A DNA stretch of 64,000 bases from Hexactinellida sp. DTS-2022. Taxonomy: Eukaryota > Porifera > Hexactinellida. The notes below the pieces were generated by a model. It searched no databases and was not told the origin of the DNA. It was given only the letters and a program-made list of their open reading frames with translations. The stretch lies in assembly GCA_028753945.1 (NCBI GenBank), contig JAPNXP010000012.1:4672501-4736500 (forward strand), written 5' to 3'. The first letter of the stretch is position 1, and each line of letters starts with the position of its first letter. A program made the translations under genes and the position numbers. This document shows, one piece after another, positions 6,360 through 64,000 of this stretch.

Positions 6360-9179
6360 TTACTTGTTAGCATTTAAGGCCGCGTTAATGTTCTCATCTA
6401 GCCGCACGATGGTGGGATCATCTCTCGAGTAGACCCCGGTCTGCAGCAAGATGTTCCTCTGCTCCACCCACCGAGCTATCTTGGCTTCCAGCTCGTTCTT
6501 AACGGGACCTCCTCTCATTGACCCGCTAAGACTGAGCGTGTCCATGGTCCTGGCCTGCTCCTCTTTGTCAGCTACGAAGCTCCCTCTCGACCCCACTGCG
6601 GTTGCCTGCAGCTGTTCCAGCTCCTGCTTGGTCCGCTGCAGCTCCCCCTGTGTGTCCTCTCGCTGCATGTACGCGTGTCTCAGCTGCTCCAGTTCCTGTT
6701 GCTCCTGCTTCAGCTTAGCCTGGCTCACCGCGTACTCCTGCTGCCGCATCTTCGCCAGCTCCTGGAGAGCCCGTCCCCACTGCTGTCGGTACTGCTGCTT
6801 GGCCTGCAGCGCCTGCGACAGCTGTTGCTCCAGTTTCCCCTTCTCGGCCTCGGACACTGTCAGCTCCGCTTGCAGCTTAGCTTCCGGCTTGGTGCGGCTC
6901 TCCTCCATAACCCGCTGGAGCTCGCTGTCCCGCTGCTTCAGGCGGCGGTCCGCCTCTTCCAGACGCTCCTGCAGAGTCTTTATCTTCTCCTCGCTGAGCA
7001 CCAGTCGGCCCCTCTCAATGGACAGCTTCTGTTCGCACTCGGCAGTCACCTCGCGTCTGAGACTGCCCCTCTCGCCCTCCCACCGCTCCAGCTGCAGCGA
7101 GAGGCTCTGCTCCCTCCGCTGCAGCTCCTGCTCCCGCAGGTCCAGCTCGCCGCCCCTCTCCCGCACCTCCTGTAGCCCGCTGCGCAGCTCGCTCTGCAGC
7201 TCTTCGTACTGACGGGACTTGCTCTCCAGGTCCTCCCGCTGTCCCGTCTCCTGGCGACTCCACTCCTGCGCGAGTCGCTCCAGCAGCTCCGCCTCCTTGC
7301 TCCTCAGCCTGTCTCGGAACTCCGTCTCCTCCCTCTCCTTCCAGATCTCCAGCTGCAGCGCCTCGCGGTACTCAGAGGAGGCCAGCGCCCGCTCCAGGGG
7401 GGCGGGCCGGGGGGCCTGCTGCACCTGGGGAGCCTGAACTGGCTCAGCTGTTGGTTGTACGGTCGGGGGGAGCGGCTGTGCGGTCTGATGGTCCGGCGTG
7501 AGGTGCGGAGAGGTGTCAGTGTTCGCAGGAGCGAGTGAGAGGTTAATCTGCAGCTCCGCGAGTGTCCCGGCGCGGGAGAGGAGCGGAGAGCTCATGGAGT
7601 GCGAGAAAGCGCGAGGGGAGACTGCGTGCGAGAAGACGGAGGAGAGCAGCACCGTGGAGGTGGCGACGGGCTGCGACTGGGAGTAGAGCTGGATCTGCAG
7701 AGGCTCGGTCTGCGTGTGCTCCATGAGCAGCGATAGGGGAGAGCTGAGGTCGAACATACAGCAGGAACTATGGATGCGCTGCGGCTGGGAGAGAGGCAGC
7801 GAGGCAGGGAGCGGGATCTCGATCGGGTGCGTGAGAGAGAAGAACGGATAGAGGTAGTGCAGGGAGTAGGAGCCCTCGGGGGGCAGGGAATGGTTTGTGA
7901 TGGTGGGAATGTCGATAGTGAAGCAGAACGTCAAACTATCCTCTGGGGCAGGCGGGGCAGGAGGGAGAGGTACGGGGTTGATGACGTCAGGGGACTGCAG
8001 GAGGGGAGAGGGGGGGTCGGGGGGCGCCAGGTGCAAGCCGTCGAGGTCCGGGAAGGGAGGGGGCGGGGCGACGAAGGCCTCTGTCTCGTTTTCCCGAGCG
8101 GCGAGAGGCTGCTCCGGAGAGGAGTCGATCCGCAGGGAGGCGGACACGCTGAGACTGATCAGCTGTTCGTTGAGAGCCGTGCTCTCCGCCTGGCGGGGCA
8201 GCAGACGGATGTGCTTCTCTATGTGGGTGGGGAGGGCCTCGTGCGGCCGGAAGAGACTCGCCGAGAGCTCCAGCAGAGGCATCTCTCCGCTGGCGATCGC
8301 GTGCTCCTCGGAGAAGAGAGTGAGAGACACGGGGCTGTGTCCGGTGAGCACTAGGTGTAAACTTTCGCGAGAGGAGAATATCCTCATGGTGATCCGCTCC
8401 GGCTTGAAGGTAGTGGAGGCAGCGGAGGAGAGCTCTGCCCGCTGGTCGGTGCGCTCGCTCTCGGCGCCCAGAGTTAGGGAGAAGGTCTCGGACTGGATCT
8501 GGGACCCGAGCAGCGAGTACACCAGTCGGAGAGTGGCGTCCGAGTGGGAGGAGCCGTAGGCGGGGTAGTTCTCAGGGCTCAGCACAGACTGGATTGTGAA
8601 GGTCAGCGCGAAGAGCAGCCTCTGCAGCTCTGCGGTCTGCTCCTCCTCCACGATAAAGTAGCCGTGCTTCGGGTCGAGGGTCATTCTCGGGAGGCCGGGG
8701 CGCGGGGGGGGCGAGGCGGGGGAGGGATCGGGTCGGTCGAGGAGAGAGGGGGCGGGGGCCCCGTCGGCGGCGGCGGCGGGCTCTTGCGTGAGGATAACGA
8801 ATATCTCGGGCTTGAGTCGGGGGTAGGACACGTTCAGGAGTCGCACCCAGTGCCCCTTGGCGGGCCGCTGCTGCGCTGTCCGCAGGTCCAGCAGCAGGTA
8901 CCCCACCTGCTCCCGGGCCTTGGAGCGGTTGTCCAGCGCGCAGAGGACCAGTTTGAGGGGCGTGCGGTGCAGGCGGTGCTGCTGCAGCTGCTTCTGGGAG
9001 ATCTCCCAGCAGAGCTCCGTGTTCACGTGGGGAGAGGTCAGGTGGGGGACTGGGTCCGTGGAGAGAGACTTGCCAGAGAAGTTACTCTCCACGACCAAGC
9101 AGTGTCCCGGTCTAGCCGGGAAGTAGCGCCCCTCTGAGATCCCCACCACCAGCAGCTGGAGCTTCTCCTCTCCGGCCAT
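6360..9179 (-). CDS. CEP120: CEP120 centriole elongation protein
   Basis: A single uninterrupted frame of 939 residues from the ATG at 9179; human CEP120 is about 986. The N-terminal C2-like domain matches CEP120 closely (LLVVGISEGRYFP, the LDLRTAQ motif, HRLHRTPLKL). A proline-rich middle and a second C2-like region follow, then a coiled coil over roughly the last 280 residues, ending in VEQRNILLQTGVYSRDD, the family's conserved tail. CEP120 promotes centriole growth and ciliogenesis. The frame is open upstream to an ATG at 9287, but the extra 36 residues do not resemble the family, so I place the start at MAGEEK. The absence of any intron is unusual for an animal CEP120. Confidence 0.92.
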   Translation of the reverse strand: MAGEEKLQLLVVGISEGRYFPARPGHCLVVESNFSGKSLSTDPVPHLTSPHVNTELCWEISQKQLQQHRLHRTPLKLVLCALDNRSKAREQVGYLLLDLRTAQQRPAKGHWVRLLNVSYPRLKPEIFVILTQEPAAAADGAPAPSLLDRPDPSPASPPPRPGLPRMTLDPKHGYFIVEEEQTAELQRLLFALTFTIQSVLSPENYPAYGSSHSDATLRLVYSLLGSQIQSETFSLTLGAESERTDQRAELSSAASTTFKPERITMRIFSSRESLHLVLTGHSPVSLTLFSEEHAIASGEMPLLELSASLFRPHEALPTHIEKHIRLLPRQAESTALNEQLISLSVSASLRIDSSPEQPLAARENETEAFVAPPPPFPDLDGLHLAPPDPPSPLLQSPDVINPVPLPPAPPAPEDSLTFCFTIDIPTITNHSLPPEGSYSLHYLYPFFSLTHPIEIPLPASLPLSQPQRIHSSCCMFDLSSPLSLLMEHTQTEPLQIQLYSQSQPVATSTVLLSSVFSHAVSPRAFSHSMSSPLLSRAGTLAELQINLSLAPANTDTSPHLTPDHQTAQPLPPTVQPTAEPVQAPQVQQAPRPAPLERALASSEYREALQLEIWKEREETEFRDRLRSKEAELLERLAQEWSRQETGQREDLESKSRQYEELQSELRSGLQEVRERGGELDLREQELQRREQSLSLQLERWEGERGSLRREVTAECEQKLSIERGRLVLSEEKIKTLQERLEEADRRLKQRDSELQRVMEESRTKPEAKLQAELTVSEAEKGKLEQQLSQALQAKQQYRQQWGRALQELAKMRQQEYAVSQAKLKQEQQELEQLRHAYMQREDTQGELQRTKQELEQLQATAVGSRGSFVADKEEQARTMDTLSLSGSMRGGPVKNELEAKIARWVEQRNILLQTGVYSRDDPTIVRLDENINAALNANK

Positions 9180-9232
9180 CTCACAAGTGATACTAATCAG
9201 TTGCGAACGATTCAATATGCATGGCATGTAAG

Positions 9233-9421
9233 GATGAGGAGAACCGACAGATGTGTCGCAACATGATTGGTGCTGGTAATAACTCATCCGGGATTAGGTA
9301 TGGTAGCCATAACTTGCGCATAGATTTTGTGGCAACAGATTGGTATACATGGCACATGCGCAGTAGTTTTGTGCTCATATGTCTAGTGGTGTGCATGCGC
9401 AATTGATTGGTGCGCATGTGC
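9233..9421. promoter_or_regulatory. Cluster of NRF1-like motifs upstream of CEP120
   Basis: Three 11-mers at 9352-9362, 9391-9401 and 9411-9421 each match TGCGCATGCGC on one strand with one mismatch, and a fourth GCGCA half lies near 9316. NRF1 sites are common in CpG-rich housekeeping promoters. The segment also has loosely repeated text (ATTGGTGCGCATGTGCAAT-like), so the motifs may reflect a degenerate repeat rather than regulation. Confidence 0.35.
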
Positions 9422-12491: not shown

Positions 12492-12499
12492 GTATATTG

Positions 12500-12898
12500 C
12501 AAGGTTGCAACCGAATAGTTGACCGAATAGTTGCTTGCCGATTAGCTAGTAGTCGGTCGGGTACCCAAATCCAGGTTTATTGTTTTTTTATGAACCCTGA
12601 TGTATTTGGCTCATCAAATAAAAGCATTTGGCCTACCTGATGATAATATTTTGCTGATCTGATATTAGTATTCGGTTGACCAAATAGTAATATTCGGTTG
12701 ACCGAATAGTACAATTTGTCAACCGAATACCAACCTATATTCAACAAAATATCATTAACAGGTGAAGCAAATACTTGTATTTGTAGACATGGATATATAT
12801 GCGGTCCAAAATGACAAATAATACCGGGTTTCGGTAAGCGACCGATTATTAGCTAATCGGCAAGCAACTATTCGGTCAACTATTTGGTTGCAACCTTG
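12500..12898. mobile_element. hAT-type MITE with 8-bp target duplication
   Basis: A 399-bp element with terminal inverted repeats of about 60 bp, starting CAAGGTTGCAACC and ending GGTTGCAACCTTG. It is flanked by GTATATTG at 12492-12499 and 12899-12906, a direct 8-bp duplication, which is the hAT hallmark. The repeats contain several copies of ACCGAATAGT. It has no coding capacity. Related fragments occur near 23218 and 25618. Confidence 0.85.
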
Positions 12899-12967
12899 GT
12901 ATATTGTATACTACGTGTTATAGCTCTGTTGTTCCGCTAATTAGACTGCAAAATCTGCCTGATTACA

Positions 12968-13651
12968 ACGAGTGTTATCTTAGCAGCGGATTCAGCAGCG
13001 GATTCGCAAACCTCACTTTTAGGCTAATAACTCAAAAAGTATAAGTTGCACATGAAAAGTGATCACATTATCGGGAAGAGAAAAGTTGGGACAACCCATA
13101 TATAATCCCAAAATGTCAAAATTCCTGAAGATGACTTAGCAATTTTCGCTCAAATTTAGACCTCGGTTTTTCCATAATAACTCAAAAATTATTCATTTTA
13201 TAAAATTTTCCTTTTAACCACATATATATCTCACTTGGGACATCGTGTCATCTGAATTTCAAAACAAAATATTCATTTTTGAAAAAATATTTTTAACATT
13301 AATTTCACTAAAATAAATTTCTTGATCTTATCGGCGGATTCGCAGACCTCACGTTTATGCTAATAACTCAAAAAGTTTACGCTGTACGTGAAAAAATTTC
13401 ACATCAGCGGAAAGATGAGAGTTGTGACAACCCATATATAATCCCAAAATGTCAAAATTCCTTAAGATGACTCAGCAATTTTCGCTCAAATTTAGACCTC
13501 GGTTTTTCCATAATAACTCAAAAATTATTCATTTTATAAAATTTTCCTTTTAACCACATATATATCTCACTTGGGACATCGTGTCATCTAAATTTCAAAA
13601 CAAAATATTCATTTTTGAAAAAAATAGGAATAACATAAATTTCACTAAAAT
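12968..13651 (+). repeat. MULE left terminal inverted repeat
   Basis: 684 bp. It is built from two tandem subunits of about 325 bp, each beginning near GGATTCGCA(A/G)ACCTCAC and containing CCCATATATAATCCC and TAGACCTCGG. Tandem subrepeats in long terminal repeats are known in MULEs, where they hold transposase binding sites. Confidence 0.9.
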
Positions 13652-13792
13652 AAGCATTCAGTGAGATTTGCATACTTATTACCAACTGTACTTTACTTAT
13701 TCATATTAACATTGTATAGTAAACTCTCTGTCAATAATTACTTTATACTATGTCCTTTGTTGATTATTCAAGAGTTCTCACTATATATATAA

Positions 13793-14753
13793 CGAGCCCT
13801 TCGGTCTCGGTCGCTTTGCGACAGATCGGTGCTACGCACCTCAAGTTAACGGCCGCTATGCGGCCTTACTCCTCACATTTTCTACCATGGAAATGGTAGA
13901 TAGGGACGTTATGATTTTGATTTTCATTAATTTGTTTACCTATTTGTGTAAACAACAACAACAACAAAGACTCATATTAGAATTTTATAAATGCGAAATT
14001 CGTGTTCAGCACACTTGTTTACTTATAATACCCGTTGGAAGCTAACTTCTAGGTTGATTTTGAATTTTAATTAATTTTTTACCTATTTTGTGTAAACAAC
14101 AACAACAACAAATATTAATATGAGAAATTTATAAACGTGAAATTCGTGTTCGGCATACTTGTTTACCTATAATACCCGTTGGAAGCTAACTTCTAGGTTG
14201 ATTTTGAATTTTCATTAATTTGTTTACCTATTTTGTGTAAACAACAACAAAAAATATTAATATGAGAAATTTATACACGCGAAAATCGTGTTCAGCATAC
14301 TTGTTTACCTATAATACCCGTTGAAAGCTAACTTCTAGGTTGATTTTGAATTTTCATTAATTTGTTTACCTATTTTGTGTAAACAACAACAACAAATATT
14401 CATATGAGAAAAATATAACCGCGAAAATCGTCTTCAGCATACCTGTTTACCTATAATATCCGTTGGAAGCTAACTTCTAGGTTGATTTTGAATTTTCATT
14501 CATTTGTTTACCTATTTTGTGCAAACAACAACAACAAATATTCATATTATAAATTTATAAATGCGAAATTCGTGTTCAGCATACTTGTTTACCTATTATA
14601 ATTATCATTTGTTTACCAATTTTTACATTTGACAGTTAGTTTACATCTCATATACTAATGCGGTTTCTATTTCGCCCATCACTTTAATACAATCCGGACA
14701 AACAAACACACACACACACACACACACAACAATCGAGATTTAATAATATAGAT
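13793..14753 (+). mobile_element. Hairpin-head repeat, copy 1
   Basis: The head is a chain of short hairpins with three-base loops: 13793-13809, 13810-13822 (GTCGC/TTT/GCGAC), 13828-13840 (GGTGC/TAC/GCACC) and 13851-13865 (GGCCGC/TAT/GCGGCC), then an 8-bp stem at 13881-13900. About four to five tandem units of roughly 142 bp follow, each with CTAACTTCTAGGTTGATTTT and (AAC)n. The tail is an (AC)n run and CAACAATCGAGATTTAATAA. The same order recurs at 48995-50099. It has no coding capacity. The layout of block, minisatellite and microsatellite recalls non-autonomous Helitron (DINE/HINE) elements, but I see no decisive Helitron end. Confidence 0.8.
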
Positions 14754-15233
14754 ATAGATATATATAATATAATATAAGGAACACCCCATTCTTCTATTAG
14801 ATTTTTCAGCAACTTTATCACTTCTTTCAAAACACAACAATACTTTTACATTTTTCGTTTCTTTTACATCTTCACTTCTTTCACACAACATCTTTTTCAC
14901 CTGATTTGTTATTTCGCATTTATTTTCGGCTCAGTTCCTTGATTTTTCAAAGTCGATACTTCCAATTCAAGTAAGTTTATCCATTTTATTACCAAACCGA
15001 AGGTAACTTAATAAATTGTTAATTGTATGGCTGGTAGTATCAGTATACATTATGTAACTCACATCTAATATATAATGAGTATATCAAACACCCAAGACCC
15101 TCAAGGATTGGGGTACGGTGATCCCAAAGTTGGCCAGACCAATAAAAAGTTTCTTCCTCAGGCCCTGAATTAATAAAAGGCATAATATTCTTAAAATATT
15201 ACTTATTATAATGATTATCGTTTTCATCTAGTA
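14754..15233. other. MULE 5' leader region
   Basis: AT-rich DNA between the hairpin-head insertion and the transposase start. It should contain the transposase promoter. TTTTCATCTAG just before the start codon at 15234 looks like a splice acceptor. No gene is seen. Confidence 0.5.
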
Positions 15234-18200
15234 ATGACTTCAATTGAGCAATTCGTGGAAGCTCTCCACAAACTCGGGTATGATGACTTCAAAGTTATAC
15301 AAGATGCCTTGAACAAGGGAGACAGGCGTAAACCGAAATCTGTTTGGGGAAAGCTGTCAATTACCCTTTTCGGAAAGAACAAGGCTACTAAGCGTGATTC
15401 CCTCTGCGCCAAATGGAGAATGAATCGAGGAAATTTTCAATATCTCGTAAGGCAAATGATCAGTGCGCGCAAGTCGATCAGTCCTAATGATGTACCCCAA
15501 TTGGCAGTAGAGCACATCACTACTCAGTTTGAAATCGCAAGTTCTTATGCTATTGATGTAGAGCTCAGTAAGATGATCAGTTGTAGTGAGTTTGATTTCA
15601 GTATGCCTAGTTTACAGCGAGACATAATGAATAATGTATTACTAACTTTATTGGCATCTGGTAGCGATGACTGCGAACTTAACGCTCTTATGTCTAAGTT
15701 GGCTTCTTCTCCTCCTCATACAGGGAAGACTGATAGCCATTTTTGGTTGTTCATAAACTGTGATAATAGTCTATGGTTAGATGCAGTAAAATATTTCAGC
15801 TTACAGTGTCCCTTTATTAGTGGTCAGTTCATGTTAGTGGATGACAAACTCAACGATCTGTCTAAAAAGTTTAGTTACTGTCTAATGGAGTCAATGCAAT
15901 GGACTAGACTAATTAGGAGAAATTGTAACTTAGTGGAAGCATGGATTGTAGTTGAAACTATTAGTTGTAGGATATTAGAGTTATTTGGGAATTCCTATGT
16001 AGCGTTCACAGCCCAACAACTAGATTCGTTCATTGGCTTTATCCTATCTTGTCGAGAAAATTTAGATATTCTAAGGTCATTTCATGAATCTCTATCCCCA
16101 AAATTGCATGATACTTCTTCTTGTTGTTCTACAGTTCACCAAGTCCCTGTATTGTCATCTACTGATGGCCCACAACCTGAAATTGAAATTATTAAGTCTC
16201 ATTTCCCTGATTCCAATTTGTTAGTGGCATCAGTAGATGACAATACTTTGGGGAATGAAGTTATAGTTGAACACTCCATGCTTAGGGAAGAAGTTTGTGG
16301 TGACTTTTTGATAAGTGGAATGGAATGGAAATGCATTACACAAATTCACGGAGACTCTTTAGTATTTTCTAAAGATTGGACAAATTTATTTACTTCAAAG
16401 ATTGAGGAAAAATTTGTTTGCGTTCTTTCTTTTAAATACAAAAAGTTTAATAAACTTAATAGTAGAAAACAAAACAGCTGTTTTTTTAGAGCTAAAGCAG
16501 TGTGCAAGTTTCAAAATTGTTTTGAGTTTACATTCGTAATAAAGAAAGATCCGTCAGAGTGTAAAATTGATGAAAATATTATTGTAGAGTATGTAGCTTG
16601 TGGAACCTTATCTGAACAGCATTCCGATAATACAACTGTGCACTCACGAAAATTATCACATTTGCATAGGTTAGAAGTTGCAAAAGATGTAGCAGATAAA
16701 TCTGTAAATGCTTATTTCTATGATCAATTTGATTCCGTAGAGAACACAAATTTAGCTCTTAATTATGGCAACCTAAGTAAGATTAGAAGTGCTGCAGTTC
16801 TGCGAAAAGCGAAATTTGATTTGTCTAGTTTACAGAGATATTCTAATGATAACTGGGCTGAGTTAATTAGCTTACAACAATATTATCGAAATAGTGTTAT
16901 TGGCCTTCATGTTAGAGGTTACATTCAGTCATTAAGTCATAGTCCTTTTATTGTACATCTGTATACTGAAGATCAAATCAAAATATTGAAATTGTTTAAA
17001 GATACAAGGATTGTTCTTCACTTGGATGCCACAGGCTCAATTGTAAGGAAAATAGAACCCTCACTGAAGAAAATATTCTATTACGCTCTTACTGTAAGAC
17101 ATCCTACCTACTCCACTAGTCCAGTTCCACTTGCAGAAATGATTAGCTCAGGCCACACTAGCGCTGAAATAAGTTATTTTTTGCACAAATGGTCGCTAGA
17201 TGCAAAGAAAATACTGGGAGATCTAAACATTTCACAAATTGAAATAGACTTCAGTTGGGTTTTGATTCACAGTTCTTGCAGTATTTTTCTCAAGTGTGAT
17301 ATAGAATCTTATCTTAATAAATGTTGGAATATGGTAAATGTAAATTCTGATGTTCATAAAAGAGATTTCAAAGTAATTATTCACTTATGTTCAGCACATT
17401 TAATGCACAGTATAGGATTTCATATAAATAAGAAATTTAAATTAAACAAAGATGCAAGAAAACTGTTTTTACATTGTATCGGATTTATAGTACGCTCTGT
17501 TGAACTTACAAGTATCAATAAGTTGTTCCAATCTTTATGCTATGTATTTATGAGTCGTTCTTTGAGTGCAGAGGTAAAGGCACATATTCATTTGTTAGAG
17601 ACATGCATAAGTAATGAAAATGTAGATTTCTTAGAGACTAATGAATATTTGGAGGAAGAATATATGGACGATAATAATCCCATTGAAAATAAAGATAGTA
17701 AAACATTCAGAGAAAAATCCCCTTTCGGCAAACATTTTGTAAATATTGCAAAAATTTGCAAAACTTGGATCGACAATAATCATGGAAGAAAGGAAGATCC
17801 AAATCCTTGTTATATTCCTGAGCTTATAGAGTACTTGTTAACATATTACTTACCAATATTGCCTTTATGGAGTGGAATCGTAATAGGACCTACTAGTGTA
17901 TCAGGTAAGAATAATAATAATAACATTTTTAGTAACGCCATTGTGGAGAATTGGATGCGTATTGTTAAGTTAAATATCTTGGAATCGAAAACTAATTTGA
18001 GGCCTGGAGATTTGATAAAATTGTTGTATCCGAGTATATTAAGTAGGCTATCAGCATTTCACTTTGCCTTTCATCCGCGAGCGAAGAAGATATTTAAAGG
18101 CCATAAACGAGTGAGAGATAATTTGGAAGAGCAATGTGTTGAAGAGTGGTCTAGGAAAAAGAAACTGTATTGTGGCTATTTACAACCAAAATCATATGAA

Positions 18201-18980
18201 TTTCCGATATTAAAGAAACCAAAGCTAAATAGTAAAAGTAACGTATGTAAAGTTAAAAGTAAATTTGTCCCACGGAAATGTGAAAAGTTATCCAGGTTAC
18301 GTTCGCAAAGTGCATCACAGGTAACTCGAGTGGCCTCTATAATAACAGATGAAGAAATTGTTGAGACGGGGATAATACGGTATGTTCTGCCAAGCTTTCG
18401 TCCTCCAACTATTGACTGGCAGATATATACGTGTAAAAAGTGGAACTTTCAATTTCGCGAGGCGGTACCGTACTCTTATAATATTATTTTAGATAATGAG
18501 GAAAGTTTATTTAATTATGACCCAAATTGTACTAAAGATATAATAGGTGATGGAAATTGCTATTTCTCGACAATTTCTTATCTCATGACTGGCAGTCAAA
18601 TTTTCCATGCAGAGTTTAGGGATATACTAATTGATAACATGCTAGGCAACCTGAGCATAAGTTGCAACAAATATTTAAGAACAAAATATGTATATACGCA
18701 AGGTAACTATCGAAATGTACAGGACTGGGTTAACAAAACTGGAATGAGGAAGAGTGGAAAATGGGCTACAGATCTTGAGGTGTTTGCGACTGCTTTGTTA
18801 TTTAAAATTGACATCTGGCTATTCTTAGGTCCATCGGGAACACGTTGGGTTGGATTTTCAGGGAATGGATCCACTTTTGATGAATTAATCAAGGAACCAA
18901 CCCCGAATGGCATTTATATACAGAATGTTGGAAATCATTATGAGCCCATTATTTCTGTGAAATTTGAAAATAATAATTAA
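15234..18980 (+). CDS. MULE transposase fused to a C-terminal OTU cysteine protease
   Basis: One intact frame of 1248 residues. The middle holds a DDE transposase: D598 in LHLDATG, D672 in IEIDFSW, a C719-x2-H722 pair in LCSAHLMH after the second Asp as in MULE transposases, and a likely catalytic Glu, E905, in NAIVENWMR. The C-terminus is an OTU-type deubiquitinase-like domain with the DGNC nucleophile motif (C1109) and the catalytic His in NHYEP (H1235). The N-terminal 550 residues are unrecognised; a basic segment near 1000-1060 follows the DDE core. A protease on a transposase recalls plant MULEs with ULP1 peptidases. The OTU part might remove ubiquitin from the transposase or its partners; that is inference. 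All active-site residues I can name are present. Confidence 0.88.
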   Translation: MTSIEQFVEALHKLGYDDFKVIQDALNKGDRRKPKSVWGKLSITLFGKNKATKRDSLCAKWRMNRGNFQYLVRQMISARKSISPNDVPQLAVEHITTQFEIASSYAIDVELSKMISCSEFDFSMPSLQRDIMNNVLLTLLASGSDDCELNALMSKLASSPPHTGKTDSHFWLFINCDNSLWLDAVKYFSLQCPFISGQFMLVDDKLNDLSKKFSYCLMESMQWTRLIRRNCNLVEAWIVVETISCRILELFGNSYVAFTAQQLDSFIGFILSCRENLDILRSFHESLSPKLHDTSSCCSTVHQVPVLSSTDGPQPEIEIIKSHFPDSNLLVASVDDNTLGNEVIVEHSMLREEVCGDFLISGMEWKCITQIHGDSLVFSKDWTNLFTSKIEEKFVCVLSFKYKKFNKLNSRKQNSCFFRAKAVCKFQNCFEFTFVIKKDPSECKIDENIIVEYVACGTLSEQHSDNTTVHSRKLSHLHRLEVAKDVADKSVNAYFYDQFDSVENTNLALNYGNLSKIRSAAVLRKAKFDLSSLQRYSNDNWAELISLQQYYRNSVIGLHVRGYIQSLSHSPFIVHLYTEDQIKILKLFKDTRIVLHLDATGSIVRKIEPSLKKIFYYALTVRHPTYSTSPVPLAEMISSGHTSAEISYFLHKWSLDAKKILGDLNISQIEIDFSWVLIHSSCSIFLKCDIESYLNKCWNMVNVNSDVHKRDFKVIIHLCSAHLMHSIGFHINKKFKLNKDARKLFLHCIGFIVRSVELTSINKLFQSLCYVFMSRSLSAEVKAHIHLLETCISNENVDFLETNEYLEEEYMDDNNPIENKDSKTFREKSPFGKHFVNIAKICKTWIDNNHGRKEDPNPCYIPELIEYLLTYYLPILPLWSGIVIGPTSVSGKNNNNNIFSNAIVENWMRIVKLNILESKTNLRPGDLIKLLYPSILSRLSAFHFAFHPRAKKIFKGHKRVRDNLEEQCVEEWSRKKKLYCGYLQPKSYEFPILKKPKLNSKSNVCKVKSKFVPRKCEKLSRLRSQSASQVTRVASIITDEEIVETGIIRYVLPSFRPPTIDWQIYTCKKWNFQFREAVPYSYNIILDNEESLFNYDPNCTKDIIGDGNCYFSTISYLMTGSQIFHAEFRDILIDNMLGNLSISCNKYLRTKYVYTQGNYRNVQDWVNKTGMRKSGKWATDLEVFATALLFKIDIWLFLGPSGTRWVGFSGNGSTFDELIKEPTPNGIYIQNVGNHYEPIISVKFENNN

Positions 18981-20110
18981 TTATTATTGGAATGTGGCAA
19001 TCCTTCCTTCTATTATTCCCTCTTTTAACCTCAATTAAACTATTTCTCTTTCTATTTTCTATCTTGCACTTTGGCGTTTTTAAAATGACGCGAAGGCGTT
19101 TCGCGTAGAAACGCATTTAGACTGCAACATAGTGACAAGTTCAGTGTTGGATCAAGTTCAATAATTTGAATTATTTTTTGTATATTATTGCATCAGATCA
19201 TTTTCATAATGCTCACCAGATCGATCAATTCAATCATTTTCACTTATTCAAATCGTTCAACTCTTCCGTTTTAGCATTCGAATCAATTTCAGATCATTCA
19301 AATAATTATTTTCCTATTAACCAACTCGATCAAATCAATTCAAAGTATTTTTCAGATCAAAATAAATTAACTCAACCTTGCCGGCCCGCCACTGACACCA
19401 TAGTTTGTTGTAAGCGCATATTACATAGTGGCTGTGTTTAATAAAAGCGAGTAGGTCGAGGGTTAGCCTCCAGTTGAGTCCCTGGAATGGGACGAAACCT
19501 GCCGGATGACCGCTTAAGAAAGTAAACAAGTCTATTTTGGGGAAAGAAGGAACATGAAGCATTCAGAGTCAGATAAAAGTTACGCAAATTATTATATGGA
19601 AATGATATTTGAACCCTTATTGGAGTTGTTTAAAACACCGAACATTGTTATAGTAAGCAGAATAATCATTGTGTACTGATATTGCATCCTAATTATTAAT
19701 TTGTTTGTACTATTATGTAGAGCTAAGTGTGTTTAAACTGATTCATTAATAATGATTAAGTGATTAGAATATATCAATCTATCAATCATATTATTTATGT
19801 TAAATGAAACTCAAAGGAGAAAGGATGAGTTGTGTTTACTTGATGTAAGTATAATTACTCGGTGTAATTATGAAGTGCAAGTAGTGAATTCAATTCCTCA
19901 GAGGTGACCAGACAATTCGGTTCCTGTGAAAACAGTGACGCAAATCGAAGCAATGCGTTTCAAATATATTTGTATATGAGGTGTTTGTATTATGTAAGGC
20001 ATTTTAATTATTCTACAGAGGTACCAAAAACTTTAATTCCTGTGAACACTGTGACGCATATCAAATAAATTCTTATCAATAGTATTATTAGAGTTGACAA
20101 CATGAGATAT

Positions 20111-20279
20111 CTTATATGTAGACCGTCTAGAAATAGACCAGGTTTTATTCCCTATATATTAGTATTACCCATAAAAAGCAGGGCAAGTGGTCTACAGAAT
20201 TTATAGACGGTCTACAAAATTTTGGCTTATTTGTATGGGCTTTTATAGACCGTCTATTTCTAGACGGTCTACATATAAG
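20111..20279. mobile_element. Small MITE inserted in the MULE
   Basis: A 169-bp element whose ends are inverted copies of about 30 bp (CTTATATGTAGACCGTCTAG and complement). The TAGACGGTCTAC motif repeats inside it. The superfamily is not clear, since no exact target duplication is visible. Confidence 0.7.
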
Positions 20280-20335
20280 GATGCTCTGACAACATATCCA
20301 ACATTATGGATATTGGAAATCATCATTGTAAGCCG

Positions 20336-21018
20336 ATTTTAGTGAAATTTATGTTAAAAATATTTTTTCAAAAATGAATATTCTGCTTTGAAATTTAGAT
20401 GACACGATGTCCCAAGTGAGATATATATGTGGTTAAAAGGAAAATTTTATAAAATGAATAATTTTTGAGTTATTATGGAAAAACCGAGGTCTAAATTTGA
20501 GCGAAAATTGCTGAGTCATCTTAAGGAATTTTGACATTTTGGGATTATATATGGGTTGTCACAACTCTCATCTTTCCGCTGATGTGAAATTTTCTCACGT
20601 ACAGCGTGAACTTTTTGAGTTATTAGCATAAACGTGAGGTCTGCGAATCCGCCGATAAGATCAAGAAATTTATTTTAGTGAAATTTATGTTAAAAATATT
20701 TTTTCAAAAATGAATATTTTGTTTTGAAATTTAGATGACACGATGTCCCAAGTGAGATATATATGTGGTTAAAAGGAAAATTTTATAAAATGAATAATTT
20801 TTGAGTTATTATGGAAAAACCGAGGTCTAAATTTGAGCGAAAATTGCTAAGTCATCTTCAGGAATTTTGACATTTTGGGATTATATATGGGTTGTCCCAA
20901 CTTTTCTCTTCCCAATAATGTGATCACTTTTCATGTGCAACTTATACTTTTTGAGTTATTAGCCTAAAAGTGAGGTTTGCGAATCCGCTGCTGAATCCGC
21001 TGCTAAGATAACACTCGT
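20336..21018 (-). repeat. MULE right terminal inverted repeat
   Basis: 683 bp, inverted relative to 12968-13651 and nearly identical by eye, with the same two-subunit structure. The outermost bases are AACACTCGT, followed by the target duplication. Confidence 0.9.
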
Positions 21019-21997: not shown

Positions 21998-22225
21998 TTG
22001 TGGGCATTCCCCCCACGCCCAACCTGGGACCCCCCGCCCCCCCATACGGGCCCCCCATGGACTCCCCCCAGCGGATTCCGCATGGAGATGTTCCGAGCGG
22101 TGGAACGGGCTACCAACCGGGATAAAATTGCGACTGCCGTCATGGTTGACATGGCGGCCGCCGCATTCCGCGTCCCCACGATTTGGGACAGGGGGAGGGG
22201 GCCCGTGGAGGCTCTTATAAGGTAA
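21998..22225 (+). other. Exon-like frame, copy 1 of a duplicated segment
   Basis: A proline-rich lead (PPRPTWDPPPPHTGPPW) is followed by MEMFRAVERATNRDKIATAV and MVDMAAAAFRVPT, and then a possible splice donor, AGG/TAAGTA, near 22220. The counterpart at 24487-24606 keeps the frame (ATAVMVNMAAVAFGVPTLGD) although the DNA has diverged, which hints at former or present coding use. I recognise no family and found no partner exons. It could equally be part of an unclassified mobile element. Confidence 0.3.
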
Positions 22226-23812
22226 GTATTATTCTTGTTTATTCTCTACTTTAATTTGTATGTTTGTTTCGCGACGGATAGTAATAGTACTCGTTTATAG
22301 GATCATTTTGAATTTTCATCAATAAGTTTGCTCATTATGTTAGACAACAGTAACCAGAACAACATAATTTATTCATTTTCGAATTTATAAATGCGAAATT
22401 CTGAATTAGCATACTTTCCGAGTTTGCCGAATTAAAACTAGCTAATCTAACTTGATGATTAATCGTGATTTGTGACCCAGGTTCACATCTGTAACCTAGA
22501 GATACCTGTCCTGAAAATTGGGCTTAATAGAACTGTTCTGTGGAGAGGATACAGACCAAAATACCAAGCAATAAGATTAGAACTGGGCCACTATACTATA
22601 GTATAGTCGGCACAGTAAAAACAGATAACTAACAAGTAGTCATTTTAATGAGGGTCACTACGTAGTTGGCACAGTTGTAATTTTTTTCTATTTTTATTCT
22701 ATATCTCATTCATCATTCAGATCCCTGACACCACGCAGGTAATTGTTTATTTAGGGAATTTAGTAAACATAACTTCACACAGATCTGAAATATATTGTTA
22801 GCGAAGTTTTAAAATAATTAAGCCGAAATCAGATTTAAGTAAATAATTCTATAAATACAATTAGTACGAATATCAGTGGACCGTCAAAATGCGTTTGCCT
22901 TATCCGGAATCTTATTTATCAAATATCATTTGTATCGAAAAGGCTTTGAAGTGAACTGAAATAGGAAATAGTGTTCGTATTAACCGGAAATTCGTATTAA
23001 TCGTGTTCGTACTACGAGGTACTACTACTGTAATCTGGAGTAGTCTAAATGTTGTTAAAATATTTACGACGAGTTTCCATTAGAAACGAGACTTTATTCT
23101 TGATTTTATTAGGACGAGCCCATACACTACCCGCCCATGTGCCTCCCCCTATACTCCTCTTAACATTTCGTGAGACTTGAGATATATTTATTTCTCAACA
23201 GAACATCTTTATTATTCAAGGTTGCAATTGATTAGTCCTGTTCGGTTGGACCAAATACTATTTTGCAAATACTACTTATAATAAAACCACATTAATACGA
23301 CTACTAATGAGCCGTCAAGATTTTTGTTTACCTTATCCAAATTCGTATTAACCGGTATCACTGAGAACCTTTGTAGGATCCAAAAATTGTGTTCACACTA
23401 GCCGAAAACTCTTATTAACAGTGTTCGTACTAAGGAGTTCTCCTCTAATTTCCGAATATCGTTCGGTATTTGGTTGGGAAGTTAATATATCGGTTTACCT
23501 ATTCTAAAAAGGGTATTAAATCTAAACACCTGCGGTTTTATCACGAGAGAGAATTTTTTAGACCTCTACAAACACAGCCTAGGGCTCCCAGTCCCCCCAG
23601 GAGCCTGCTCCCTAGGTGAGCAAATTATCAAGGCTTCTAAGAAGGTATGCCTTTACATTTATTTTGATATTTTATTATATACGTACATCAATTTTGAATA
23701 ATTCACAGCATGATGTAGTATAACTTGCATTAGTTAATTCTATTATATAAATACTGACAGTATCTATGATTCACCGTGATCATGTAACCCCACTTGCGAT
23801 AGTAGTACTTAG
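22074..23812 (+). repeat. Large tandem duplication, copy 1
   Basis: This segment matches 24470-26291 in the same orientation, nearly identical from about 22220 on. It includes the exon-like frame, a CAGT/TA MITE (22858-23030) and a hAT-MITE fragment near 23218. The two copies differ by short indels and by a GC-rich patch (23570-23625), replaced in copy 2 by a longer AT-rich stretch. Confidence 0.85.
22858..23030. mobile_element. CAGT/TA-type MITE, copy in first duplicate
   Basis: It is flanked by TA on both sides and ends GGTACTACTACTG. It lacks about 10 bp at its left end that copy 25248-25430 retains. It shares GCCTTATCCGGAAT and CGTATTAACCGG with the element in the BAIAP3 intron. Confidence 0.65.
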
Positions 23813-24469: not shown

Positions 24470-26291
24470 TATGGACGATATTTCGAGTGGTGGAAATTTT
24501 ATTCGCACGGAACCAAATGGCGACAGCCGTCATGGTTAATATGGCAGCCGTTGCCTTTGGCGTGCCAACCCTTGGGGACGGGGAGGGGGTAATGGGTCCA
24601 CTTTGTGGTAAGGACTATTCTTGTTTATTCTCTACTTTAATTTGTTTGTTTGTTTCGCGACGGATAATTATAGTACCTACTCGTTTATAGATTCATTTAG
24701 AATTTTCATCAATTTGTTTGCTCATTATGTTAGACAACAGCAACAAGAACAACATAAAATATTCATTTTCGAATTTATAAATGCGAAATTCGGAATTAGC
24801 ATACTTTCCGAGTTTGCCGAATTAAAACTAGCTAATCTAACTTGATGATTAATCGTGATTTGTGACCCAGGTTCACATCTGTAACCTAGAGATACCTGTC
24901 CTGAAAATTTTGGCTTAATAGAACTGTTCTGTGGAGAGGACACAGACCAAAATACCAAGCAATAGATTAGAACTGGGCCACTATACTATAGTATAGTCGG
25001 CACAGTAAAAATAGATAACTAACAAGCAGTCATTTTAATGAGGGTCACTACGTAGTTGGCACAGTTGTAATTTTTTTCTATTTTTATTCTATATCTCATT
25101 CATCATTCAGATCCCTGACACCACGCAGGTAATTGTTTATTTAGGGAATTTAGTAAACATAACTTCACACAGATCTGAAATATATTGTTTACGAAGTTTT
25201 AAAATAAAAAAGCCGAAATCAGATTTAAGTAAATAATTCTATAAATACAATAGAACTTCGTTAGTACGAATATCAGTGGACCGTCAAAATGCGTTTGCCT
25301 TATCCGGAATCGTATTTATCAAATATCATTTGTATCGAAAAGGCTTTGAAGTGAACTGAAATAGGAAATAGTGTTCGTATTAACCGGAAATTCGTATTAA
25401 TCGTGTTCGTACTACGAGGTACTACTACTGTAATCTGGAGTAGTTTAAATGTTGTTAAAATATTTACGACGAGTTTCCATTAGAAACGAGACTTTATTCT
25501 TGATTTTATTAGGACGAGCCCATACACTACCCGCCCATGTGCCTCCCCCTATACTCCTCTTAACATTTCGTGAGACTTGAGTTATATTTATTTCTCAACA
25601 GAACATCTTTATTATTCAAGGTTGCAATTGATTAGTCCTGTTCGGTTGGACCAAATACTATTTTGCAAATACTACTTATAATAAAACCACGTTAATACGA
25701 CTACTAATGAGCCGTCAAGATTTTTGTTTACCTTATCCAAATTCGTATTAACCGGTATCACTGAAAATCCTTTGTAGGATCCAAAAATTGTGTTCACACT
25801 AGCCGAAAACTCGTATTAACAGTGTTCGTACTAAGGAGTTACTCCTCTAATTTCCGAATATCGTTCGGTATTTGGTTGGGAAGTTAATATATCGGTTTAC
25901 CTATTCTAAAAACGGTATTAAATCTAAAAACGATTATGATAACTATTCGGTCAACCGAATATCACTATTGAATAAATTGAAAAACTACGTATTCGGTTAG
26001 AATCCAGTTAGATTATACTTTATTTGTGCGGTTTTATCATGAGAGATAATTTTTAGATTACTACAAACACCCAAGGCACCACCAAGTCCCATAGGTGCTC
26101 TCCAGGTGAGCAAATTATCAAGGCTTCTAAGAAGGTATGTCTTTACATTTATTTTGATATTTTCTTATACACGTACATCAATTTTGAATAATTCACAGCA
26201 TGATGTACATTAATTAATTATATTATATAAATACTGACAGTATCTATGATTCACCGTGATCATGTAACCCCACTTGCGATAGTAGTACTTA
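24470..26291 (+). repeat. Large tandem duplication, copy 2
   Basis: The partner of 22074-23812. It carries the shorter exon-like frame (24487-24606), the complete MITE at 25248-25430 and an extra stretch with ATTCGGTCAACCGAATA near 25940-25960. The shared segment GTGAGCAAATTATCAAGGCT near 26105 (23617 in copy 1) is conserved. Confidence 0.85.
25248..25430. mobile_element. CAGT/TA-type MITE, fuller copy
   Basis: 183 bp between TA dinucleotides (25246-25247 and 25431-25432). The left end is CAATAGAACTTCGTTAGTAC; the right end is GGTACTACTACTG after TTCGTACTACGA. It belongs to the same family as 5141-5290 and 60411-60603. Confidence 0.7.
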
Positions 26292-29518: not shown

Positions 29519-30706
29519 TTAATTGAAGTTTAAAGCGTAAATTTGAAGATTGAGAGTGTTGTCAACAATAACCCCAAGTTCTTTCAAATCATTCAGGTCA
29601 AATTTAGCAATCCTGTGTTGACTAATATCTGCAAATAAAACAAATTCTTTAATTTGGTGCAACTCTAAATTTGTCCTTTTATTCAATGTGCAAAACTTCT
29701 TGCCAATTGGATTTATTATAAATGTCCAGAACTTAAAAGATAGGTTGCCACTGTTCTTAAAGAAAACTGATATTTCTAGTGTCTGACCTCTTGTGATTGT
29801 ATATTTCGGTTGGAATACTTTTGAGGAGGGCGGAACCTTAAAAGAAGGACCTTCAATGTTCCGAGCACAATATCTAATAGGTAGATTCCAAATAAGGCTC
29901 AGGGTGTAACCAGCCATTTCGCTAAACCGAATTGCTTGACCCGTCAAATTTTCAATTTTGTTTCTCATTTGTTTCATTTCTAATCGCAAATGAATTAAGT
30001 TATGCTCTTCATTGTGTTCAGCTCGATCCCTCAAAAGCATCCTACAATCGCAACCGAATGCTACGAAATCGCATACAATTTCTGTAAAATCACATACTTC
30101 GATGTGATCTGCTAAATCACATCTTGCTAGTACCAGCTGGCATCTTTCATTGGTACATTCAATCGGGTAGCGGAGGCAAATTGCACAGTGTGTATCCATA
30201 TGTTTGAATATGAAATAGGTTTGACAGTATTGGCACTGAACTTCGCGCATTCTACAATATGATTCTTTATGTTCTGGGAGCAAACAGCTTTTCATCACAG
30301 ACCCACAATTTAGATCACATATTTTTTTGAACATTTCACATGCTGCTACATGTTCCTCGACTTGTACTAATTTCCCCTCCCATCTACATTTCATTTCCCC
30401 TCTTTCGACTCTCAAAGTGGTTGGACAAATAACACCCATGTTTAGTATAGGTTGGGATAAATGAGGCAATGGTATTGGCTGGACCCTTTTACAACAACCG
30501 CTACACGTTATAAATAATGGGTTGCCGACACCACAAGGGTCCTTCATAATTCCATCACACACTCCACAGCTAACTATATTGTTTGTGAATTCATTTAAAG
30601 CCTCTGACAAGATTTCCTTTTTATATCCCCAGTACTTTCCTTCTCTAGATACAAACACTAAATCTTCCACAGTATCAGGTATTATAGTATCATCAATTTG
30701 TGACAC
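29519..30706 (-). CDS. TRAF-like protein (RING-like, TRAF zinc fingers, MATH-like end)
   Basis: About 395 residues. The N-terminal Cys-rich part (CGVCDGIMKDPCGVG, then CSGCC) looks like a degenerate RING. TRAF-type fingers follow (CRMREVQCQYCQTYFIFKH, CDFTEIVCDFVAFGC), then a short coiled coil (LEMKQMRNKIENL) and a C-terminal MATH/TRAF-C-like fold. TRAFs relay receptor signals, often as ubiquitin ligases. The frame opens at a GTG (30706) with no in-frame ATG nearby; AAAATAG just upstream can act as a splice acceptor, so a short 5' exon with the true start is likely missing. The zinc ligands of the RING are incomplete, so ligase activity is uncertain. Confidence 0.75.
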   Translation of the reverse strand: MSQIDDTIIPDTVEDLVFVSREGKYWGYKKEILSEALNEFTNNIVSCGVCDGIMKDPCGVGNPLFITCSGCCKRVQPIPLPHLSQPILNMGVICPTTLRVERGEMKCRWEGKLVQVEEHVAACEMFKKICDLNCGSVMKSCLLPEHKESYCRMREVQCQYCQTYFIFKHMDTHCAICLRYPIECTNERCQLVLARCDLADHIEVCDFTEIVCDFVAFGCDCRMLLRDRAEHNEEHNLIHLRLEMKQMRNKIENLTGQAIRFSEMAGYTLSLIWNLPIRYCARNIEGPSFKVPPSSKVFQPKYTITRGQTLEISVFFKNSGNLSFKFWTFIINPIGKKFCTLNKRTNLELHQIKEFVLFADISQHRIAKFDLNDLKELGVIVDNTLNLQIYALNFN

Positions 30707-31965: not shown

Positions 31966-32712
31966 ATGAGTCGCATACCACTGCCAGCAGTCTGTAAGGC
32001 TGTCTCCTTCCCCCCCAACATACCCACATACTTGCGTCGCGTGTACAGATACCAACACATGGACTTCGAGTACGCCTTTTGGCAGATGTCCTGTCTCCTC
32101 TTCTCCCCATCTAAGCTCTACAAACAGTTTCAGTTCAACAAGCAAACCAAGTCTAAATGGGCGCGTGACGACCCAGCCTTTCTTGTGCTGCTCTCACTCG
32201 CTCTCTGCATCAGCTCTGTAGTGTTTGCTGTTGTTCTTAGACTGTCAGTCTTCGGGTTTTTCAAATTCATACTCTACGTTATATTCGTAGACTGCATTGG
32301 CATGGGTCTAGTCATTGGGACCCTCTTTTGGGCCTTGTTTCGTAGGTTCCACCCTGCTGCTGGTGTGGAGTGGGCATATGCTTTCGATGTGCATCTAAAC
32401 GCGTTCACACCTCTCCTACTGATTGCTCACGGCCTCTTGCTGTGTCTCTTCAAACTCGTGTGTCAGCCCTACATCCTATCCACGCTTCTCGGGAACACTC
32501 TCTGGGTGTTTGCTCTCTTCTACTACATCTACATAACATTCCTAGGCTACTCAGCAGTCTCTCCCACCCGGGCAACCGTATTTATCCTATACGCAGCCCT
32601 GCCTCTCGTCTTATTATATCTAATTTCAATTCCACTGAATTTGAACCTGACCGTTGGTCTGTATACATTCTATGCCAGAAGAGTAGGTCACTCCTCTTTT
32701 GTAGCATATTGA
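31966..32712 (+). CDS. UNC50: UNC50 Golgi membrane protein
   Basis: 248 residues in one exon, about the family length (259 in human as I recall). Diagnostic blocks are HMDFEYAFWQM, ARDDPAFLVLL, VEWAYAFDVHLNAF, GNTLWVFALFYYIYITFLGY and a short Arg-rich end. It has about five membrane segments. UNC50 is an inner-nuclear/Golgi membrane protein needed for trafficking of some nicotinic acetylcholine receptors and related to yeast GMH1. The ATG at 31966 is followed at once by conserved-type sequence. An AATAAA lies at about 32739, 27 bp past the stop. Confidence 0.95.
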   Translation: MSRIPLPAVCKAVSFPPNIPTYLRRVYRYQHMDFEYAFWQMSCLLFSPSKLYKQFQFNKQTKSKWARDDPAFLVLLSLALCISSVVFAVVLRLSVFGFFKFILYVIFVDCIGMGLVIGTLFWALFRRFHPAAGVEWAYAFDVHLNAFTPLLLIAHGLLLCLFKLVCQPYILSTLLGNTLWVFALFYYIYITFLGYSAVSPTRATVFILYAALPLVLLYLISIPLNLNLTVGLYTFYARRVGHSSFVAY

Positions 32713-37267: not shown

Positions 37268-37702
37268 ATGGGCGCCGAAACTCCAACGTTAGGGGGGGTG
37301 TTATCTAATATTCAATTGTAAAAAAACTATACGTATGGCAGGTATGGGGAATTGAATCAATGTTGGAGGGTATAATTGTGTAGATATATACTTCATCTAC
37401 TGATATTTATACAAACTCTCTATGGAAGCATTATTTCCCAATTGAAATTACTTATATAGAGCTGAGCTTTGTACAGTTCAGTTTTTCACTATGTGTATTC
37501 ATGCACTGAGAAAGGTCAGTTTTTTTCCAGAGTTCGAAATTGACCTTTAGAAAGTAAGCCTGGGCTTTTAGTATGGGATAAAATCTGAACTCTACAAAGC
37601 TCAGCTCTATATAAGGATTCCCTTCCCAATTTACTTCCCTGACTGCTCCTCGGCCAGGGGGGTGACATCCTCCCTGACCCCCCCCCCCCTTTCGGCGCCT
37701 AT
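37268..37702. mobile_element. MITE with ATRGGCGCCGAAA termini, hosting another MITE
   Basis: The left end is ATGGGCGCCGAAA and the right end TTTCGGCGCCTAT, inverted copies over 13 bp. Inside lies the 179-bp element 37444-37622, so the order of insertion is clear: this one first. Confidence 0.65.
37444..37622 (+). mobile_element. 179-bp MITE with 9-bp target duplication, copy A
   Basis: Direct repeats TTCCCAATT at 37435-37443 and 37623-37631 flank the element. Its terminal inverted repeats of about 30 bp contain TTATATAGAGCTGAGC. Copy B at 43259-43437 is the same length in inverse orientation. A 9-bp duplication fits a Mutator-like mobiliser. Confidence 0.9.
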
Positions 37703-39987: not shown

Positions 39988-40728
39988 ATGAAGAAATCCA
40001 AACCGATGAAGCTGAACATTGCGTACCCCCCGAACGGGTCGCAGACGCTGCTGGAGCTCGAGACGGACGAGCAGTTCCGCCCCTTCATCGACAAGCGCAT
40101 CTCGCAGGAGGTGGTCGGGGACTCCATCGGGGAGGTCTGGAAGGGGTACACCTTCCGGATAACCGGGGGGAACGACAAGGAAGGTTTCCCGATGAAACAG
40201 GGGATCCTGACGAATGGGCGTGTGCGACTCCTCCTGAACAAGAACAGCGGCTGCTACCGACCCAAGCGGACCGGCGAGCGACGCAAGACCTCTGTCAGAG
40301 GCTGCATCGTGGACAAGAACCTGAGCGTTCTTAACCTCATCGTGATTAAGCGGGGAGAGAAGGGAATCCCGGGGCTCACGGACAGGGAGATCCCGAACCG
40401 CCTGGGGCCTAAGCGGGTGGGCAAGATCCGGAAGCTGTACAACCTCAGCAAGAACGATGACGTCAGGAAATACGTGTTGAAGCGACCCCTCCCCCTGAGA
40501 GAGGGCAAGAAGCAGAGGTTCAAGGCGCCAAAGATTCAGCGTCTGGTGACGCCCGTGCGACTCCGCAGGAAGAGACACCTGAAGTCCATAAAGAAGGTGC
40601 GCGTGCAGAAGGGCAAGGAGCAGGCGGCCGCCTACCAGAAGCTGCTGCTGCTGCGGGCCAAGGAGGCGCGCACCCGGCGAGTGAGCAGCATCTCCAAGCG
40701 ACGCGCCTCCAGCACCAAGTCGCAGTGA
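39988..40728 (+). CDS. RPS6: 40S ribosomal protein S6
   Basis: 246 residues from the first ATG or 240 from the second. Conserved blocks: [83 protein letters not shown]. The C-terminus ends with Ser clusters ([13 protein letters not shown]), the place of S6-kinase phosphorylation in animals. Family members begin MKLN, which is the second Met (40006); the first (39988) adds MKKSKP and has a good context, so the start is undecided. It is a single exon, whereas RPS6 usually has introns in animals. Confidence 0.97.
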
Positions 40729-50018: not shown

Positions 50019-50074
<56 letters not shown>

Positions 50075-62767: not shown

Positions 62768-64000
62768 AGAATCCGATGCAAGACCAAGAAATTCAATTTC
62801 AAGAACAAGAAATCCAATTCAAGACCAAGAAATCCAATTTCACGAACAAGAAATCCAATTTCAAGAACAAGAAATCCAATTCAAGACCAAGAAATCCAAT
62901 TTCATGAACAAGAAATCCAATTTCACGAACAAGAAATCCAATTTCACGAATAAGAAATCCAATTTCACGAACAAGAAATCCAATTTCATGAACAAGAAAT
63001 CCAATTTCTCGAACAAGAAATGCAATTTCGAAAACAAGAAATCCAATTTCTCGAACAAGAAAACCAATTTCTCGAACAAGAAATCCAATTTTCGAACAAG
63101 AAATCCAATTTCACGAATAAGAAATCGAATTTCTCGAACAAGAAATCCAATTTCACGAATAAGAAATCCAATTTTCGAACAAGAAATACAATTTCTCGAA
63201 TAAGAAATCCAATTTCTCGAACAAGAAATGCAATTTCACGAATAAGAAATCCAATTTCACGAACAAGAAATCCAATTTCTCGAACAAGAAATGCAATTTC
63301 TCGAACAAGAAATCCAATTTCACGAATAAGAAATCCAATTTCTCGAACAAGAAATCCAATTTCACGAACAAGAAATGCAATTTCTCGAACAAGAAATCCA
63401 ATTTCACGAACAAGAAATCCAATTTCACGAATAAGAAATCCAATTTCTCGAACAAGAAATCCAATTTCACGAACAAGAAATCCAATTTCACGAATAAGAA
63501 ATCCAATTCCACGAACAAGAAATCCAATTTCTCGAACAAGAAATCCAATTTCACGAACAAGAAATCCAATTTCACGAACAAGAAATCCAATTTCACGAAC
63601 AAGAAATCCAATTTCACGAATAAGAAATGCAATTTCACGAACAAGAAATCCAATTTCACGAATAAGAAATCCAATTCCACGAACAAGAAATCCAATTTCT
63701 CGAACAAGAAATCCAATTTCACGAACAAGAAATCCAATTTCACGAATAAGAAATCCAATTTCACGAACAAGAAATCCAATTTCTCGAACAAGAAATCCAA
63801 TTTCACGAACAAGAAATCCAATTTCACGAACAAGAAATCCAATTTCACGAACAAGAAATCCAATTTCACGAACAAGAAATCCAATTTCACGAATAAGAAA
63901 TCCAATTTCACGAACAAGAAATGCAATTTCACGAACAAGAAATGCAATTTCTCGAACAAGAAATCCAATTTCTCGAACAAGAAATCCAATTTCGTGAACA
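62768..64000. repeat. 21-bp minisatellite, continues past the window
   Basis: About 58 units of AA(C/T)AAGAAATCCAATTTC(A/T)CG and close variants (CCAAT/GCAAT). Occasional 20- or 15-base units shift the phase. Two forward frames and one reverse frame stay open for long stretches, giving heptads such as NKKSNFT, TRNPISR and VKLDFLF. There is no non-repeat coding context at the left end, so I call it satellite DNA, not a gene. Confidence 0.92.

Follow-up and report, generated by a model that had tools for sequence, protein, structure and literature searches.

A putative Mutator-like transposon from a Hexactinellida contig with an OTU-like region in its single long reading frame

Does the uninterrupted open reading frame (ORF) at positions 15234-18980 of a 64,000-nucleotide stretch from Hexactinellida sp. 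DTS-2022 (contig JAPNXP010000012.1; the whole stretch is called the window below) belong to a mobile element, and if so, of which kind? An earlier reading from the letters alone (the sequence-only reading) described the frame as a Mutator-like transposase carrying an OTU deubiquitinase-type domain. The ORF was found to be enclosed by a complete DNA transposon of 8,051 bp, extending from 12968 to 21018. In our judgement this is probably a Mutator-like cut-and-paste transposon with composite, Foldback-like repeats, which encodes a single protein combining a DDE core with an OTU region.

The terminal inverted repeats of the transposon are ~700 bp long, with 649 of 656 ungapped positions equal (97.3% over 706 bp, gaps included), and the outermost bases are ACGAGTGTTATC. 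Tandem units compared inside one terminal repeat were 91% identical (292/320 on the left and 291/319 on the right), whereas between the two terminal repeats the outer units were 99% (316/319) and the inner units 97% (309/320) identical. Because the units differ more within one repeat than between repeats, the doubling of the ~336-bp unit predates the present insertion. A perfect 9-bp duplication (CTGATTACA) abuts both transposon ends. This 9-mer occurs twice on the forward strand of the window and not on the reverse strand, with no occurrence beyond the two flanks, and a 9-bp match arose by chance in 6 of 200000 random junction pairs drawn in the window (pairs less than 50 bp apart were skipped).

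The 1248-codon frame is the sole long ORF within the transposon; other frames started by ATG reach at most 75 amino acids (aa), and the next longest has 91 aa when GTG and TTG starts are allowed. The probability of 1248 consecutive open codons is ~10^-44, assuming independent bases with the ORF's own composition. The intact frame of the sequence-only reading was borne out, and all of the residues named there (D598, D672, C719, H722, E905, C1109 and H1235) were found at the positions given. Since the repeats are near-identical, the duplication is intact and the frame is open, the insertion appears to be recent. The transposon is likely to be autonomous, or to have been so until recently.

The C-terminus of the ORF appears to resemble an OTU cysteine protease, to a degree that is more than chance. 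The PF02338 profile matched the whole protein with E = 0.0011 and residues 1060-1248 with E = 1.1e-4 (23.2 bits). The motifs DGNC and NHYE are present; they had been noted earlier as the sites of an OTU nucleophile (C1109) and histidine (H1235), and they exceed chance, as the pattern DGNC...[NST]H[YFW][DENS] was obtained in 1 of 5000 protein shuffles. D1106, C1109 and H1235, which we take to be the OTU catalytic set (an Asp three residues before the Cys, the Cys and a late His), all occur. A PDB search with residues 1060-1248 returned 10 sequences to E = 10, three of them OTU-type (6dx2, 5jze and 4bop). The best match was 6dx2 (E 0.016), which, like 5jze, is deposited as 'RNA-dependent RNA polymerase'; 4bop is OTUD1. 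Both 6dx2 and 5jze are presumably viral OTU domains.

The GC content at third codon positions (GC3) was 0.328 in the OTU part and 0.284 in residues 560-960, the DDE part, and ranged from 0.49 to 0.87 in nine of the ten other window ORFs compared. These ten ORFs are mechanical calls, nine of which have a Pfam match above the cut-off (the one without is 32990-35737). Codon usage of the OTU part correlated with that of residues 1-960 (0.59) and not with that of the ten ORFs pooled (-0.38). Because the OTU part lies in one frame inside the repeats and its codon usage matches that of the transposase part, we conclude that it belongs to the transposon's own gene and is not a recent host capture. A separate or recently captured host exon as the source of the OTU part was rejected on the single frame and the AT-rich codon usage shared along it; the fusion within one frame, as first read, therefore held.

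Coordinates of the transposon and of the features within it (window positions; aa, amino acids)
Feature	Start	End	Strand	Details
Target-site duplication, left copy	12959	12967		9 bp, CTGATTACA; repeated exactly at the right flank
Terminal inverted repeat, left	12968	13672	+	two tandem units of ~336 bp (from 12998 and 13334) after a terminus of ~30 bp
Unclassified repeat nested in the transposon	13792	14753		142-bp minisatellite units, AC run
Candidate intron in 5' untranslated region	14971	15231	+	GTAAGT...CATCTAG, 261 bp; spotted by eye
Putative transposase ORF	15234	18980	+	1248 aa, uninterrupted; in-frame stop upstream
Putative DDE core	17025	17948	+	residues 598-905: D598, D672, C719xxH722, E905; motif order only
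OTU-like cysteine protease region	18411	18977	+	residues 1060-1248; D1106, C1109, H1235, E1237; PF02338 match and motifs
Terminal inverted repeat, right	20314	21018	-	also with two tandem units of ~336 bp
Target-site duplication, right copy	21019	21027		9 bp, CTGATTACA

It is quite likely that the transposon is Mutator-like, with no assignment to a family of Mutator-like elements (MULEs). We place it there because of the 9-bp duplication and the long composite repeats, together with a plausible motif order, and not because of detected homology. MULEs are described as having terminal inverted repeats of more than 100 bp and duplications of 8-10 bp (PMC5225508), and the element has both; a Phantom-type Mutator/Foldback element is described with composite repeats and duplications mostly of 9 bp (PMC3169594). 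Within the protein, D598, D672 and E905 may form the catalytic DDE core. A stricter D-D-CxxH-E pattern, composed after the sequence was inspected, was found in 5 of 5000 shuffles, and the spacing of 74 between D598 and D672 falls in the range of 60-76 reported between the first and second Asp (D1 and D2) in 11 of 12 arthropod MULE clades (PMC13359780). The repeats and the duplication around the ORF were absent from the sequence-only reading, and they strengthen its transposase claim. Its term "Mutator-like" gains from them as well, with the reservation that no transposase model matched and that the protein did not align to a prokaryotic Mutator profile.

A number of results weigh against the reading as a Mutator-like transposon with an OTU protease. 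When the D-D-CxxH-E pattern was defined loosely, with spacing as in MULEs, it was obtained in 2613 of 5000 shuffles, which is chance level, and the DDE residues by themselves failed as evidence of a transposase. The spacings D672-C719 (47) and D672-E905 (233) exceed the values reported for MULEs, which are 11-19 from D2 to the Cys in prokaryotic Mutator-like families (PMC3942029) and 120-135 from D2 to the Glu in 8 of 12 arthropod MULE clades, with at most 214 in the remainder (PMC13359780). Pfam scans to E 10, in which HMMER filters discard most matches above E ~0.1, gave no transposase family of any superfamily and no zinc finger in the N-terminal half; FLYWCH had no Pfam match in the whole protein, in residues 1-349 or in residues 350-470. 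Scans of the protein with NCBIfam and PHROGs gave no match. With a profile built from 30 prokaryotic Mutator-type transposases, residues 560-960 scored 12.7 and the whole 1248-aa protein 23.7, compared with 26.3 for the best of 40 shuffles and 608 for a member kept out of the profile; this is a comparison with one divergent query and has low power. The profile was drawn from PF10551 matches in 57 of 249 genomes (there were none in 6 others), of which 30 loci were used, and a profile from 6 unidentified frames at those loci gave no match (18.4 versus 22.8). AlphaFold predictions from the single sequence were unusable for residues 560-960 (mean pLDDT 35.2) and for residues 1060-1248 (mean pLDDT 33.8). 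On the OTU side, the PDB matches were all weak, and the PF02338 score of residues 1060-1248 lies 0.1 bit under the curated cut-off of 23.3, so that the profile comparison favours the OTU assignment by E-value and falls just short of it by score. One comparison ORF, 29519-30706 (zf-TRAF match), has a GC3 of 0.333, as low as in the transposon, which sets it apart from the other nine. Scans of virus and prokaryote collections turned up neither a second copy nor a relative of the transposon, as would be expected if it belongs to animals. Patterns were matched at 16 prokaryote and 2 viral loci; tblastn with the ORF as query found nothing to E 1 in those 16 or in 48 loci, and none of the 2, 12 and 5 pattern matches from three protein scans was confirmed.

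These results bear first on the superfamily. The same transposon might belong outside the MULEs, to another superfamily with a CxxH motif (hAT, P or Kolobok), to Zisupton/KDZ or to an undescribed superfamily. The lack of any match to a MULE model or alignment to the Mutator-type profile would fit such an assignment, as would the long D2-CxxH and D2-E spacings, and the CxxH motif is common to hAT, Kolobok, P and MuDR (PMC3706591). We nevertheless consider it unlikely. The duplication is 9 bp here, compared with ~8 bp in P and hAT and 6-7 in Dada (PMC3706591), 5-7 bp in some hAT elements, 8 in Zisupton and 7 in Kyakuja, which is without inverted repeats (PMC12730594), and a repeat length of ~700 bp is characteristic of MULEs (PMC5225508). 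The hAT, P and KDZ models of Pfam were likewise without a match.

For the C-terminal region, two further explanations concern what it does rather than what it resembles. The OTU domain would be a deubiquitinase if its sequence is a guide to its function. An OTU fold with another role, which cleaves a different ubiquitin-like protein, processes the transposase or only binds protein, is somewhat unlikely. It would be in keeping with the weak PF02338 match and with the residue two past H1235, which is E1237; at this position most OTUs have Asp or Asn. Against it, none of the residues that we take to be catalytic is missing: the Cys, a late His and, three residues ahead of the Cys, an Asp. The counterpart domains of Ginger1 and Mutator elements include the SUMO-type protease Ulp1 (PMC2836005), which again favours a role other than deubiquitination. 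The OTU part might also be a host gene fragment, captured as in Pack-MULEs and fused in frame with no function in transposition; MULEs are prone to acquiring such fragments (PMC6446971), and a single copy of the transposon was available. This is very unlikely, given that the frame is unbroken and without an intron, that the OTU motifs are intact, and that codon usage is as in the transposase half and unlike that of nine of the ten window ORFs, although an old capture is conceivable.

If the element is a Mutator-like transposon, as we prefer, its protein could work as follows. The N-terminal half would bind the terminal repeats, and the DDE core (D598, D672 and E905) would cut and rejoin DNA, excising and inserting the transposon. 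The C-terminal OTU region would free the transposase itself, or proteins located at the ends of the transposon, from ubiquitin. The likeliest target would be the transposase or the proteins of the end complex, which would thereby be spared ubiquitin-driven turnover; an action at the break, on repair or chromatin proteins that carry ubiquitin, would be nearly as likely. According to a proposal in the Ginger study, repair factors may be what OTU and Ulp1 act on in the course of transposition (PMC2836005). The anatomy is established (the boundaries, the 9-bp duplication, the ORF, the OTU match and motifs, and the codon usage), and from it we infer every biochemical step.

The idea of an animal transposase with a fused deubiquitinase-type domain is not new. 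Ginger1 transposases carry a C-terminal OTU or Ulp1 domain, with OTU in elements of Hydra, Aplysia and the pea aphid (PMC2836005). The element resembles Ginger1 as an animal cut-and-paste transposon whose transposase has a C-terminal domain of this kind (PF02338 or Ulp1), but Ginger1 differs in having a Gypsy-type integrase, a zinc finger, a GPY/F motif, repeats of ~40-270 bp and 4-bp CCGG/CCGT duplications (PMC2836005), whereas the element here has no integrase match, ~700-bp repeats and a 9-bp duplication. Identity with Ginger1 was rejected, since no integrase matched in the Pfam scans and the 9-bp duplication CTGATTACA is not 4-bp CCGG/CCGT. Mutator elements from hydra, lancelet and plants are reported to carry Ulp1, and are similar in that the element bears a protease for a ubiquitin-like protein (PMC2836005); they differ in that Ulp1 acts on SUMO, whereas the domain here is OTU-like. 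Helentrons likewise have an OTU-like cysteine protease on an animal transposon's own protein (PMC6431247), but are rolling-circle Rep/helicase elements and not DDE cut-and-paste transposons.

With the animal Phantom/Muta and Foldback-type MULEs the transposon shares 8-10 bp duplications, long and internally repetitive ends and the D-D-CH-E order (PMC5225508, PMC3169594). Aedes MULEs differ in length (416-554 aa) and in an N-terminal FLYWCH finger, present in 13 of 14 families (PMC5225508). Arthropod MULE ORFs have 313-1136 aa (PMC13359780); the protein here has 1248 aa, lacks a FLYWCH match and ends in an OTU-like region. The excerpts on Phantom/Muta and Foldback-type MULEs mention no OTU (PMC5225508, PMC3169594, PMC6446971, PMC13359780). 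More broadly, OTU, protease and ubiquitin go unmentioned in the main text of an arthropod MULE survey of 4268 genomes (PMC13359780), as do OTU, protease and ULP in the text of a eukaryote-wide MULE survey (PMC6446971). None of the literature matches listed was about a Mutator-like transposase with an OTU; Repbase and the majority of subscription papers lay outside this scope. To judge from titles and abstracts, the papers containing both MuDR and OTU deal with subjects other than transposons, except for those on Ginger and on giant transposons. An element with an OTU and a 9-bp duplication thus seems undescribed in the literature searched, which is weak evidence of novelty. The novelty claimed earlier stands to the extent that no OTU-bearing MULE was found there, and is reduced by the published OTU of Ginger1 and Ulp1 of Mutator (PMC2836005).

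We tentatively consider it possible that the element represents a lineage of transposons with 9-bp duplications that recognised MULE profiles do not cover and whose transposase has an OTU deubiquitinase as a fixed component. If true, one more DNA transposon would have acquired a ubiquitin-type protease, in addition to Ginger1, Helentrons and the Mutator elements with Ulp1; host ubiquitylation would then seem to be something that transposition has to overcome time and again. Should the fusion recur in other copies, several unrelated types of DNA transposon would each have a ubiquitin-family protease joined to the protein that moves them, pointing to a common host obstacle, either transposase turnover or ubiquitin signalling at transposon breaks. 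Given an apparently young copy with an uninterrupted frame, the idea is open to experiment; transposition of the mosquito MULE Muta1 was assayed in yeast (PMC5225508).

Other repeats were observed in and beside the transposon. The repeat at 13792-14753 is probably a nested insertion, because a related copy sits outside the transposon at ~48994-50099, where no clear target duplication was seen. Within the transposon, perfect 28-nt inverted arms separated by 113 nt lie shortly before the right terminal repeat (20111-20279), and the left end of the transposon is adjoined by an inverted-repeat element whose two arms of 190 nt are 75% complementary (12494-12904).

Elsewhere in the window, direct copies of ~1.4 kb (22125-23526 and 24515-25928) are 94.6% identical and 2.4 kb apart from start to start, and an inverted pair of 181 bp (37444-37624 and 43257-43437) is 99.4% identical. 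Two tandem arrays, with 28.6 copies of a 15-bp unit (42608-43036) and 58.1 copies of a 21-bp unit (62785-64000), have long open frames on both strands. The PDB chain that best matched the eS6 of the window was 9eho_HH; vertebrate chains came next and ranked above those from Drosophila, fungi and plants, which suggests that the host is an animal other than an insect. UNC-50 (31966-32712), eS6 (39988-40728) and a Cep120-like gene (6360-9287) each occupy a single long ORF, which suggests that this stretch, or the host, is intron-poor.

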